64,000 bases of DNA. It comes from Acidobacteriota bacterium (GTDB taxonomy: Bacteria; Acidobacteriota; Terriglobia; Bryobacterales; Bryobacteraceae). The position numbers were made by a program, and so were the translations under genes. The stretch spans positions 62,001 to 126,000 of the forward strand of contig JANXRE010000175.1 of NCBI GenBank assembly GCA_025353165.1, read 5' to 3'. Positions 19,179 to 22,212 of the stretch are shown here, piece after piece. The notes beneath the pieces are model-generated. The model was not told where the DNA came from and ran no database searches. It worked only from the letters and a program-made list of their open reading frames with translations. Each line of letters starts with the position of its first letter. Positions within the stretch are counted from its first letter, which is position 1.

Positions 19179-20087
19179 CTATTTCCCGGCGAGCCATTCC
19201 CTTGTTTGCTCGAACGAGAGCACACCGCCCACCGAACCGAGGTGCTGCACATTTAACGCGCCTACCGCGTTCGCGAACCGCGCGGCCTCCGCAATTGTCA
19301 TTTCGCGCGCTAGGGCCGCAAGGAAGCCTCCCGCAAAACAATCTCCCGCGCCGGTTGTATCCACCACACTCACCGGGAACCCCGGCACCGCTACGCGCTC
19401 GCCGGCCGAGTAGATGGCACAGCCAGCCGCGCCGAGCTTCGCGACGACCATCCGCACTCCACGCTGGAGGAAATAGTCAGGATCCTCCCCGCCCGAAAGC
19501 CGGAACGCTTCGTCGCGATTCACAAACAATATGTCCGTATTCGCGAGCGCCGGATCGATCACCTTCGCCCACTCGCCCCGTGAATCCCAGCCAGCGTCGA
19601 GAGAAGTCGTAAATCCGGCCTTCCGCGCGTTGGCCATGATCTCGCCGGCACGCGAGCGGAACAACGGCAGCGCGAATATGTTGCCGAAGTGGAAGTGTGA
19701 ATATCCGGCGGGAAACTCGATGGGAAAATCCGCGCCCGCGCTCCCGGGCCGGTGGAAGAACGCCCGCGCGCCGTCGGAGCGAACCAGAACGACGGTCGTC
19801 GCGGTCGGCAATTCCGAACGCATGACGCTCGAAACGTCGACGCCTGCTTCGCTCAAGATCGCGAGTACCTGGTCGCCCCATTCATCCTTACCGGCGATGC
19901 TGGCCAGGCGGGTTTTCACTCCCAGCCGCGCCAGAACAAAGGATGTGTTCGCGCCGTTTCCTCCCAGCGACGCGTGGATATCGTCCACCCAGACGGTCTG
20001 GTCGAAGATCAACGTGTCCACGGGCCGGACCAGGATGTCATGAACAGTGTTCCCGGCGCACAGAACGCCGCCGCCGATGCGGATCAC
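19179..20087 (-). CDS. PfkB-family carbohydrate kinase
   Basis: A 302-residue ribokinase-fold enzyme. Signatures are HASLGGNGANTSFVLARLG near the N-terminus and VDTTGAGDCFAGGFLAAL near the C-terminus, whose Asp is the catalytic base. The substrate sugar is not predictable. GTG 20085-20087 is the start: it overlaps the stop of the upstream gene as GTGA, although the frame stays open further upstream. The gene is third in an apparent operon with DAHP synthase and the anchored protein. If the attenuator upstream of DAHP synthase is active, this kinase would respond to aromatic amino acid supply too, which would be unusual. Confidence 0.87.
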   Translation of the reverse strand: MIRIGGGVLCAGNTVHDILVRPVDTLIFDQTVWVDDIHASLGGNGANTSFVLARLGVKTRLASIAGKDEWGDQVLAILSEAGVDVSSVMRSELPTATTVVLVRSDGARAFFHRPGSAGADFPIEFPAGYSHFHFGNIFALPLFRSRAGEIMANARKAGFTTSLDAGWDSRGEWAKVIDPALANTDILFVNRDEAFRLSGGEDPDYFLQRGVRMVVAKLGAAGCAIYSAGERVAVPGFPVSVVDTTGAGDCFAGGFLAALAREMTIAEAARFANAVGALNVQHLGSVGGVLSFEQTREWLAGK

Positions 20088-20986
20088 CTGAGGCGGCCTC
20101 CGGCGACCGACTCCAGTAACTTTTTGTACAGCGGCCATTCGCCGTAGACGCGCCGGCCCTCCCGCCGGAACGCGCCGCCGGCGAGCAATCCGGTCATGTC
20201 CGCTTCGTTCGCCGGGGCCTTCTTGAGAAGCTCCGTCGCGTTCTGGAGTTGCTTCCGGAGTTCCTCGGCGCCCGCTTCCGACTCGCTCGTCACATCCAGG
20301 TACAACCGCAACTGCCCGCCCGCCGTGCCGGCGGAAAACACGACGCGTTCCGAGTGAACCAGCGGCGAGGCAAACGAACGCGCGCCAGCGGGCAAGGTCT
20401 TCATATCCGCTAGTGCCGATGGCGGCACCGAGATCCAAATTGGGCGGTCGGGCGCGGCGGCCGGGAGCCTGCGCAGTGCGATATCGAGCGCGGCCGACTC
20501 GCTCTGGCTCGACGCCAGCGCCATCCACCCCGCGCCCATTTGCCAGAACGAAACCCACCGCCCCGGCTCGCTTCCTGGAGCCCGGCAGAGTTCATCGCGG
20601 CAGACGCCGTCGTGCGTCTGCGCATAGGACCGCAGGCGCGGCCAGTCGAATTTACCGCGCACCACAAAGAAGTTGCCCGAACCAGTGAAGGACGCGGCGA
20701 CTGACTCCAGGTCGCGCGTGTACTCGAACCCGGTGGCATCGACAAACGATTTGTAATCGGCGTCCTGAACCGTTTTTGCGCTGGCCACCAGATCCAGCAG
20801 GCCGGCCTTTTGCACCGCGTCGATATCGATGTAGACGAGCGTGGCTCCCGCCTGCGGAAGGGACGCGATCATTTCGGCGGGAGTCCGCGGGAACGACGAA
20901 CGGGCCAGATAGAGCCACGCCGCGACGCCGCCGCAGAGGACGCCGCCAAGCGCGATCAGCGGCCAGCGGGCCTGTGAAAACGACAT
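20084..20986 (-). CDS. Membrane-anchored orphan, paralogue of 13445-14338
   Basis: A 300-residue protein with one N-terminal hydrophobic helix (about residues 8-28) as signal anchor, followed by an exported domain. LPQAGATLVYIDIDAV, FVDATGFEYTRDLESV and FFVVRGKFDWPRLRSYA align in order with the lipoprotein at 13445-14338, so the two are paralogues in an envelope family of unknown function. It lies 1 nt after the DAHP synthase stop and overlaps the PfkB kinase by 4 nt (GTGA), so all three should share a transcript. Confidence 0.65.
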   Translation of the reverse strand: MSFSQARWPLIALGGVLCGGVAAWLYLARSSFPRTPAEMIASLPQAGATLVYIDIDAVQKAGLLDLVASAKTVQDADYKSFVDATGFEYTRDLESVAASFTGSGNFFVVRGKFDWPRLRSYAQTHDGVCRDELCRAPGSEPGRWVSFWQMGAGWMALASSQSESAALDIALRRLPAAAPDRPIWISVPPSALADMKTLPAGARSFASPLVHSERVVFSAGTAGGQLRLYLDVTSESEAGAEELRKQLQNATELLKKAPANEADMTGLLAGGAFRREGRRVYGEWPLYKKLLESVAGGRLR

Positions 20987-20987
20987 G

Positions 20988-22025
20988 CTAGGCGAGGGCC
21001 GCGGCGGGCGTGCGAGACTGCCGCCACAGTTCGATGTACGGCTCCAGATCGTGCATCATCCGCTGGAACTGCGGAATGTCGAGCGACTGCGCGCCGTCGC
21101 TGACCGCCTTCTCGGGGCACGGGTGGACTTCGACGATCACGCCATCCGCGCCGATGGCGACCGCGGCTCGCGTGAGCGCTGGAACCAGGCTGCGCTTTCC
21201 GGTCGCGTGGCTTGGGTCCAGAACGACTGGCAAGTGCGTCAGTTCGTTCAGCACCGGCACAGCGGTGATGTCGCAGGTGTTTCGCGTGGCGGTTTCGAAC
21301 GTCCGAATGCCGCGCTCGCAAAGGATCACGTTTGGATTCCCGTGGGCGACGATGTACTCGGCGCTCATCAGCAGTTCCTTGATCGTGCTGCTCATGCCCC
21401 GCTTCAGGAGGATCGGCTTGGTCACCTTGCCGAGCGCCTTCAGAAGCGCAAAATTCTGCATATTGCGCGCGCCGATCTGAAGCACGTCCGCGTATTCCGC
21501 GACGAGCTCGACGTCGCCGTTGCTCATCACTTCGGTAACGATGCCGAGGCCGGTTGCCTGCTTGGCCTTGCGCAGCAGCTTCAGCCCTTCTTCCGCCATC
21601 CCCTGAAAATCGTAGGGCGAGGTGCGAGGCTTGAACGCGCCGCCGCGCAGCAGATGGGCGCCGGCCGCCGCTACTTCCACCGCGGTACGCATGATCTGCT
21701 TTTCGTCCTCCACCGCGCAAGGACCGGCCATCACAATGAAGGTGTCGCCGCCGATTTCGTGGCCATTGACCTTGATCTGCGTTTTCTCCCTCCGGAACTC
21801 GCGGCTGACGAACTTGTAGGGCGCGGAGATGCGGACAGCGTTTTCGACCTGCGGCATGGCTTCCACCGACTCCAGGCAGTTCGTCACGTCGCCGACTCCG
21901 ACGACGCCGATGACGACGCGTTCCTCGCCTTCAATGGAGTGAATCTTGTATCCAAAATCGCGGACACGCTCGCAAACCTGGTCAATCTGTTCGCGGCTGG
22001 CATGCCGTTTTATCGAGATAATCAT
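20988..22025 (-). CDS. aroF: 3-deoxy-7-phosphoheptulonate synthase (type I-beta DAHP synthase)
   Basis: A 345-residue enzyme that condenses phosphoenolpyruvate and erythrose 4-phosphate as the first step of the shikimate pathway. The barrel shows [44 protein letters not shown] and EVHPCPEKA, with Cys, His, Glu and Asp positions for the metal. The first 70 residues form the extra ferredoxin-like regulatory domain known from Thermotoga-type enzymes, where Tyr/Phe inhibit. The ATG at 22023-22025 follows GAGGAAGG. Upstream lies a leader peptide with seven aromatic residues plus mutually exclusive hairpins, so expression is probably attenuated by charged aromatic tRNAs. Confidence 0.93.
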
Positions 22026-22053
22026 TTCAACCTTCCTCGGGCACAAAATGGAA

Positions 22054-22080
22054 GCGGCCCACTCTTTTCGAGTGGGCCGC
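22054..22080 (-). terminator. Attenuator terminator hairpin before DAHP synthase
   Basis: On the minus strand GCGGCCCACTC and GAGTGGGCCGC form a perfect 11-bp stem with a GAAAA loop, followed by the U-containing tail UUCCAUUUUGU. It sits between the aromatic leader peptide and the gene's ribosome-binding site. It is the 3:4 structure of a classical attenuator, because its 5' arm can instead pair with 22107-22114. Confidence 0.8.
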
Positions 22081-22162
22081 TGGAAGTCTTTCCGTTTGCA
22101 GGTACGCCACTCGACGGCTCAGGTCGAAAACCCGAACCAAAATCCAAACGAACTGGCGTACG
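22068..22162 (-). promoter_or_regulatory. Competing leader segments 1:2 and 2:3 (antiterminator)
   Basis: Segment 1 (GTACGCCA, within 22154-22162 inside the leader peptide gene) pairs over 8 bp with segment 2 (TGGCGTAC, within 22101-22109). Segment 2 can instead use TCGAGTGG (22107-22114) to pair over 8 bp with CCACTCGA (22068-22075) in the terminator's 5' arm. The 2:3 pairing would block the terminator. A ribosome stalled on the aromatic codons would cover segment 1 and favour 2:3, as in trp and phe attenuators. All pairings are visible in sequence; their function is inferred. Confidence 0.7.
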
Positions 22163-22172
22163 AGTAAGACAT
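22119..22172 (-). CDS. Aromatic leader peptide for DAHP synthase attenuation
   Basis: A 17-codon reading frame reads MSYSYASSFGFWFGFST and stops with TGA at 22119-22121. Seven residues are aromatic (two Tyr, four Phe, one Trp), and five of these fall within seven codons late in the peptide. It ends 38 nt before the terminator hairpin, and its 5' part contains segment 1 of the alternative folds. Such a peptide senses charged tRNA-Phe, tRNA-Tyr and tRNA-Trp, matching the three end products of the pathway that DAHP synthase starts. A -10-like TACACT lies 10 nt before the ATG and there is no clear SD, so initiation may be nearly leaderless. Confidence 0.75.
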   Translation of the reverse strand: MSYSYASSFGFWFGFST

Positions 22173-22182
22173 CGAAACCACT

Positions 22183-22212
22183 AGTGTATGCTCCGGCGCG
22201 AGGGCAATGCAA
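22183..22212 (-). promoter_or_regulatory. Promoter of the DAHP synthase leader
   Basis: On the minus strand TTGCAT (22207-22212) and TACACT (22183-22188) are separated by 18 bp, resembling a sigma-70-type promoter. Transcription would begin near 22175-22177, only a few nt before the leader peptide ATG. The 129 bp further on to 22341 hold no gene. Confidence 0.5.

Follow-up and report, generated by a model that had tools for sequence, protein, structure and literature searches.

In E. coli trpL and pheL, three mutually exclusive pairings are available to the leader RNA, the sensor codons lie in the segment 1 hairpin and the stop codon lies near segment 2; each leader reads a single amino acid through a peptide led by a Shine-Dalgarno sequence. 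T-boxes control aromatic genes in some Firmicutes, and mycobacterial polycysteine leaderless ORFs are reportedly amino-acid-responsive attenuators. For DAHP synthase, the C. glutamicum aroR-aroF system is described as one in which an aromatic leader peptide attenuates the gene (PMC11802643; PMC4046766), with a reported response to Phe limitation and none to Tyr (PMC11802643). Attenuation of E. coli aroF by an aromatic leader peptide was proposed long ago, according to a study that also describes uORFC-13-1 before Acholeplasma aroF, a uORF with at least one Phe codon, a terminator and possible -10/-35 boxes, whose mechanism is only suggested (PMC8632094). The S. meliloti trpL leader (rnTrpL/peTrpL) is described as leaderless, its RNA starting at the ATG, and both RNA and peptide as acting in trans (PMC7298713). 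An earlier survey predicted attenuators in Acidobacteria that are almost all without an assigned function (PMC2965389), and our literature search returned no paper on DAHP synthase attenuation in Acidobacteriota, although Lopatovskaya 2010 and Vitreschak 2004 may hold predictions. Here we describe an element upstream of a DAHP synthase gene in a 64,000-nt stretch of an Acidobacteriota genome (hereafter the window). Comparative sequence analysis and folding models indicate that it is very probably a ribosome-mediated transcription attenuator.

The leader and its gene in the window

The regulated gene (20988-22025, minus strand, as are all features of the locus) encodes a DAHP synthase with DAHP_synth_1 and ferredoxin-like FXD (DAHP_snth_FXD) domains (PRK08673). 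A sequence-only reading of this DNA had placed a promoter-like TTGCAT-18-TACACT (22212-22183) and a 17-codon aromatic peptide gene upstream of it, and both are present. The -35-like hexamer TTGCAT (22207-22212) and the -10-like hexamer TACACT (22183-22188), with an 18-nt spacer, match only 7 of 12 consensus bases, which is why a simple promoter scan listed nothing for the window leader; the putative promoter is supported by conservation in relatives, where CTTGCA-like boxes recur. The leader start codon lies 10 nt downstream of the -10-like hexamer, and the peptide gene (22172-22119) encodes MSYSYASSFGFWFGFST, 7 of whose 17 residues are Phe, Tyr or Trp. No Shine-Dalgarno sequence is seen before it, and its predicted 5' UTR is about 4 nt long.

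The same reading had proposed three mutually exclusive pairings, which the locus can form with some changes in their extent. Segment 1 (22149-22161) is partnered by segment 2 (22102-22114), which begins 4-5 nt past the leader stop codon and can pair with either segment 1 or segment 3; the 1:2 pairing is supported by the fold, by covariation and by the own-versus-cross and synonymous-codon tests described below. The 8 bp originally recognised between GTACGCCA (22161-22154) and segment 2 (22109-22102) hold, and beyond one bulged base the stem gains four further pairs (22152-22149/22113-22110). An inner hairpin within this stem (22115-22139), identified by folding, contains the late sensor codons and the stop codon. 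In the alternative pairing, 8 bp are possible between TCGAGTGG of segment 2 (22114-22107) and CCACTCGA (22075-22068), as proposed. Segment 3 (22068-22081) consists of the terminator 5' arm and the first loop bases, and segment 4 (22053-22064) is the 3' arm. The terminator stem is perfect, as claimed, with 12 pairs (22081-22070/22064-22053) rather than the 11 counted earlier, and the U-rich tail (22044-22053) exists in an interrupted form, TTCCATTTTG, weaker than the TTTTTT of many relatives. Because of this interruption, termination in the window may be partial. The minimum free energy fold of the leader combines a 12-bp 1:2 stem, an 11-bp inner hairpin (22139-22115) and the terminator, at -60.8 kcal/mol against -38.6 +/- 4.1 for shuffled sequences (z -5.41; 0 of 200 shuffles as good).

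Directly after the DAHP synthase stop begins a second gene (20084-20986, minus strand) with no Pfam or NCBIfam match, a relative of which, about 29-41% identical, is present in 24 of 40 DAHP synthase loci. Elsewhere in the window's genome no aromatic leader was found before pheA, which sits close behind an upstream reading frame, or within 350 nt upstream of the first ATG of the frame of an anthranilate-synthase-like gene.

Conservation, pairing and translation start in relatives

Orthologue searches with the protein covered 61 genomes plus named genome contigs and returned DAHP synthases of up to 81% identity, the nearest named ones from Bryobacterales, Candidatus Sulfopaludibacter, Terriglobia and Acidobacteria gp2. 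Upstream of 32 close orthologues (L004-L033, L114, L115) the leader is intact in 22, a relic in 3 and absent in 7, so the element is not essential. The relics retain, respectively, a single Phe (L025), the terminator only (L028) and an ORF without a terminator (L029). In family f3 the leader is absent from all 10 fetched g38 genomes and present in 5 genomes of g40, g41 and g42.

A covariance model (R1), built from 25 aligned leaders with gene sequence excluded, matches 172 of 399 genomes of the class (E up to 0.01) and, even with E-values up to 10 allowed, finds a single match in the genome that holds the window. Among the 110 matches checked, 96 are directly upstream of DAHP synthase: 29 of the best 30, the locus of the other (L153) ending too early, and 67 of 80 chosen below these. 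The remaining 13 of the 80 are L228, which precedes pheA, L169 at a contig edge, and the false matches, ten from family f11 and one from f7 (L237). Family f11 supplies 26 of the 172 matching genomes, and we reject the element there, since all 10 fetched matches have neither DAHP synthase nor an aromatic leader and resemble plain terminators; 146 matching genomes lie outside f11, the weakest of them checked only in part. In a draw of 396 genomes across the phylum R1 matches 13 (three f1, six f11 and four of other families), and of the 12 loci from this draw (L246-L257) only L253 has a DAHP synthase nearby. There, in a genome inside the phylum and outside the class, a Trp-rich leader, MMRNQKADIRITSCANWFWWSWRFAEAAWVSHRPL, precedes the gene (L253, 1460-1567). 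These sequence comparisons show an element retained across many families within one class of Acidobacteriota. A variant layout occurs in L021, L030, L037, L044, L125 and L132, where segment 2 lies inside the leader ORF and not past its stop codon.

The sequence-only reading had looked to relatives for conserved aromatic codons together with covarying 1:2, 2:3 and 3:4 stems, and both are found. With no structure supplied, RNAalifold on 25 leaders returned only the cores of the 1:2 and 3:4 stems. Column covariation, scored on an alignment (A2) that includes five spurious opposite-strand or repeat rows, was 0.203 for 1:2 (0.144 in shuffles), 0.152 for 2:3 (0.116) and 0.194 for 3:4 (0.122), with 0 of 500 shuffles as high in each case, and shifting the partner by 1-3 columns sharply lowered pairing for all three stems. 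In the same alignment neither the pairing nor the covariation score of the inner hairpin rose above column shuffles. The five spurious rows were removed from the own-versus-cross, promoter, switching and sensor analyses. Among 83 leaders left after a similarity filter, own partners paired better than permuted ones both for 1:2 (-19.40 vs -16.21 +/- 0.28) and for 2:3 (-18.36 vs -16.17 +/- 0.26), with 0 of 5000 permutations as good, and the own 2:3 partner surpassed the median foreign partner in 67 leaders; these permutations, like the shuffles, remove relatedness only in part. When the leaders were resampled with synonymous codons, the native 1:2 stem surpassed the resampled mean in strength in 75 of the 83, and the native inner hairpin region was the more stable in 63. 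Because own partners outdo permuted ones and both structures outdo synonymous resamplings, the nucleotides appear to be under selection beyond the peptide that they encode. What this comparative sequence analysis establishes is the ORF and its richness in aromatic residues, the placement of the promoter and the covariation of the helices.

How translation of the leader begins was addressed with 95 distinct leaders having 70 nt upstream and with 93 gene starts. Of the 95, 85 have a TANNNT box that ends 7-11 nt upstream of the leader start, compared with 1-7 in eight control windows further upstream, and 65 of these 85 have TTG in the -35 region, a count made without a control. Shine-Dalgarno-like 4-mers precede 6 of 95 leader ORFs as against 77 of 93 DAHP synthase starts. 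As a -10 box usually lies 6-8 nt from the start site, this spacing predicts that the leader RNA would begin about 0-4 nt from the ATG in most leaders, and the peptide gene looks leaderless or near-leaderless. The near-leaderless start with no Shine-Dalgarno sequence, the inner hairpin, the class-wide spread, the disappearance of the element from some relatives, with relics left in others, and the change to Phe at pheA (below) are additions to the sequence-only reading.

Switching and the amino acids sensed

Some 125 leader loci were available, and R1 was run on 100 of them. All but L118 gave a main match; of the resulting 99 leaders 25 had trained R1, and two rows duplicate others. For each of the 99 a ribosome mask spanning A-16 to A+12 was set at every position and the RNA folded to just past segment 3. 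The mean expected number of 2:3 pairs was 9.60 when the A site held an aromatic codon and 8.31 when it held any other, falling to 1.56 at the stop codon; with no ribosome it was 5.29. The aromatic stall exceeded the stop in 97 leaders, the ribosome-free state in 81 (it was not above it in 18) and the other codons in 78. None of 1000 codon relabellings reached the aromatic mean, a modest gain over the relabelled mean of 8.70, and stalls on non-aromatic codons in the first half of the ORF release segment 2 in the model as well. For the window leader the model predicts 9.7-11.5 pairs when the ribosome stalls at Tyr3, Tyr5, Phe9, Phe11, Trp12 and Phe13, compared with 2.5 at Phe15 and 2.2 at the stop. 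Without a ribosome its truncated fold already favours 2:3, with 8.9 pairs against 11.5 at best, so that the untranslated state is not clearly off and the default is less clear than in many relatives. The trp/phe type of attenuation logic attributed to this leader is thus favoured by the conserved aromatic ORF, the covarying exclusive pairings and the switch seen on mask folding.

We infer a leaderless start, ribosome stalling, termination and a starvation response, arranged as follows. RNA polymerase would initiate a few bases upstream of the leader ATG, giving a leaderless or near-leaderless message on which a ribosome would load. With ample charged Phe, Tyr and Trp tRNAs it would reach the stop codon and mask segment 2, the 3:4 terminator would form and transcription would end upstream of the gene. 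Were one of the three amino acids scarce, the ribosome would stall on that codon over segment 1, leaving segment 2 to pair with segment 3 while the polymerase continued into DAHP synthase. If no ribosome translated the leader, segment 2 would be contested by the 1:2 hairpin, in which sensor codons lie, and termination would be favoured in many relatives.

The mixed Phe/Tyr/Trp sensor first noticed in the window turns out to be conserved: every one of the 99 leaders encodes Phe, 95 encode Tyr and 90 Trp, and 87 have all three. Together the three make up 624 of 1927 residues (Phe 300, Tyr 192, Trp 132), counts that are biased upward by an ORF picker favouring aromatic-rich ORFs with an ATG at the model position. 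Phe codons in the 99 leaders are TTT 220 times and TTC 80 times, and in the window's DAHP synthase 3 and 6 times, a comparison that offers a hint only. We think it rather likely that the leader responds separately to each of Phe, Tyr and Trp. A doubtful reading, and the strongest competitor, is a real attenuator that senses mainly Phe, its Tyr and Trp codons being held mostly by the constraints of the RNA stem and of the aromatic pattern. Phe is indeed the one aromatic residue found in every leader and the most frequent in the sensor (300 of 624), and the descriptions of C. glutamicum aroR, with a Phe-Tyr-Phe sensor that answers to Phe limitation and not to Tyr (PMC11802643), and of uORFC-13-1, interpreted as a Phe sensor before Acholeplasma aroF (PMC8632094), point the same way. 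However, Tyr and Trp are retained in 95 and 90 of the 99 leaders, and the model responds alike to Phe, Tyr and Trp codons (9.61, 9.79 and 9.10 pairs).

A further argument for sensing of all three comes from pheA. In family f10 all 3 genomes examined carry a Phe-rich leader before this prephenate dehydratase gene (MHRTGFSFAFRFFTGGAG, MHRLSCPFIFFFNFSPAAWEVG and MRRLSCPDVFIFNFSPAAWEVG), with 5, 5 and 3 Phe, no Tyr and a single late Trp in two of them, as selection on the end product predicts. R1 matched only the first of these leaders (genome G063), the other two being found by reading upstream of pheA; terminator-like hairpins accompany the leader ORFs at all three loci (L258, L259, which is the same place as L228, and L260). 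At L228 the switching model fits the first Phe codons and less so the last two, and the ribosome-free RNA already sequesters the arm. Because the f10 leaders before pheA are dominated by Phe, sensor composition appears to follow the product of the downstream gene. For trpE, no convincing Trp attenuator was seen in the 360 nt upstream of the domain match at 30 loci of the class (one incomplete); an ORF with at least two Trp occurs at 7 of the 30, only L279 also having a weak terminator, and since none of the 30 loci is from f1 or f6 this says little on element-bearing genomes.

Short peptide motifs, YASSF and RFW among them, appear repeatedly in the leaders, and the peptides are otherwise very different between families. 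The recurrence would suit an attenuated leader RNA (about 130 nt) or peptide acting in trans, besides or instead of in cis, as would the form of the locus, a leaderless peptide gene with a terminator like rnTrpL as described in S. meliloti (PMC7298713). Yet segment 1 pairing and the sensor codons can account for the recurring residues, the great differences between families are a further point against it, and we consider action in trans quite improbable. That an ordinary terminator merely adjoins a chance aromatic ORF, the gene being constitutive or repressor-controlled, is very improbable: several relatives do live without the element and the fetched f11 matches do look like plain terminators, but promoter spacing, aromatic ORF, pairings and gene are jointly conserved in 95-99 leaders, 96 of 110 checked matches precede DAHP synthase, and the covariation, mask folding and genomic context contradict it. 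A riboswitch or T-box sensing tRNA or amino acid directly, without translation, is suggested by the T-boxes of aromatic genes in some Firmicutes and is hardly credible here, given that no Rfam 15 model (Trp, Phe and other leaders and T-box included) reaches its gathering score in the window, or matches the leader when E-values up to 1 are allowed, and that the sensor sits within an ORF with conserved start, aromatic content and promoter spacing.

Returning to the attenuator with a mixed sensor, we also looked beyond the class, at 79 DAHP synthase loci from named contigs with enough upstream DNA. An aromatic ORF precedes the gene at 21 of these, against 8 in the reverse control, and an aromatic ORF with a terminator at 14 against 0; 7 of the 14 come from records whose titles place them outside Acidobacteriota. 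These seven (L094, L095, L096, L046, L049, L050 and L069) are titled Ruminococcaceae, Clostridiales, Clostridia, Syntrophaceae, Calditrichota, delta proteobacterium and Lentisphaerae, and the ORF of L094 reads MFKNIFAYAYYFYYYYFQNTKVRVVCA. The switching model fits L094, L095 and L253, gives no clear switch for L046, L050 and L069 and the opposite for L049, and we treat aromatic leaders outside the phylum as leads only. At L046 and L050 two consecutive terminator-like hairpins with CCATGG-containing arms follow the leader ORF. An Armatimonadetes record (L053) has MPICFNFYFAFYFWRR, aromatic at 8 of 16 residues, before DAHP synthase, with no terminator found by a simple scan.

These observations can be joined in one tentative proposal, on which we are almost evenly divided and lean slightly against: that, in many families of the class, entry into the shikimate pathway is governed by a single leaderless ORF working as a three-input OR gate, lack of any one amino acid opening DAHP synthase; that the same device, placed before pheA, was retuned to Phe in one family; and that aromatic leaders before DAHP synthase arose several times in other phyla. 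Acidobacteriota are among the commonest phyla in soil. If the proposal is right, the leaders would form an RNA family recognisable from sequence, whose target is clear in many families of one class, and would offer a natural example of simultaneous sensing of three amino acids. The large leader set would allow study of how one ribosome-reading device weighs several inputs, and would also bear on translation start without a Shine-Dalgarno sequence and on the retuning of specificity for another gene.

Comparison with described attenuators

Like E. coli trpL and pheL, the window leader has exclusive 1:2, 2:3 and 3:4 pairings with its sensor codons in the segment 1 hairpin; those leaders differ in reading one amino acid and in having a Shine-Dalgarno sequence, and the window leader has no Rfam match to them. 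The closest functional counterpart on paper is C. glutamicum aroR, where an aromatic-codon leader peptide before DAHP synthase is likewise described as governing ribosome-mediated attenuation. It belongs to another phylum and, in the papers' descriptions on which the likeness rests, has a Phe-Tyr-Phe sensor with a Phe-only response. As far as its description goes, uORFC-13-1 is also a proposed aromatic uORF with a terminator before DAHP synthase, whereas it has a ribosome-binding site and its 24 examples come from one genus and environmental sequences. The S. meliloti trpL leader, as described, shares the leaderless peptide gene predicted here and differs in its Trp-only sensor, its trpE target and its place in the Alphaproteobacteria. 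The mycobacterial polycysteine ORFs, also said to be leaderless attenuators, differ in sensing cysteine, in the genes that they precede and in phylum. Attenuation of DAHP synthase is itself already known, and the present system is a trp/phe-like mechanism in a new variant. What the sequences point to as new is an element outside any Rfam family, with an apparently leaderless ORF that carries codons for all three aromatic amino acids.
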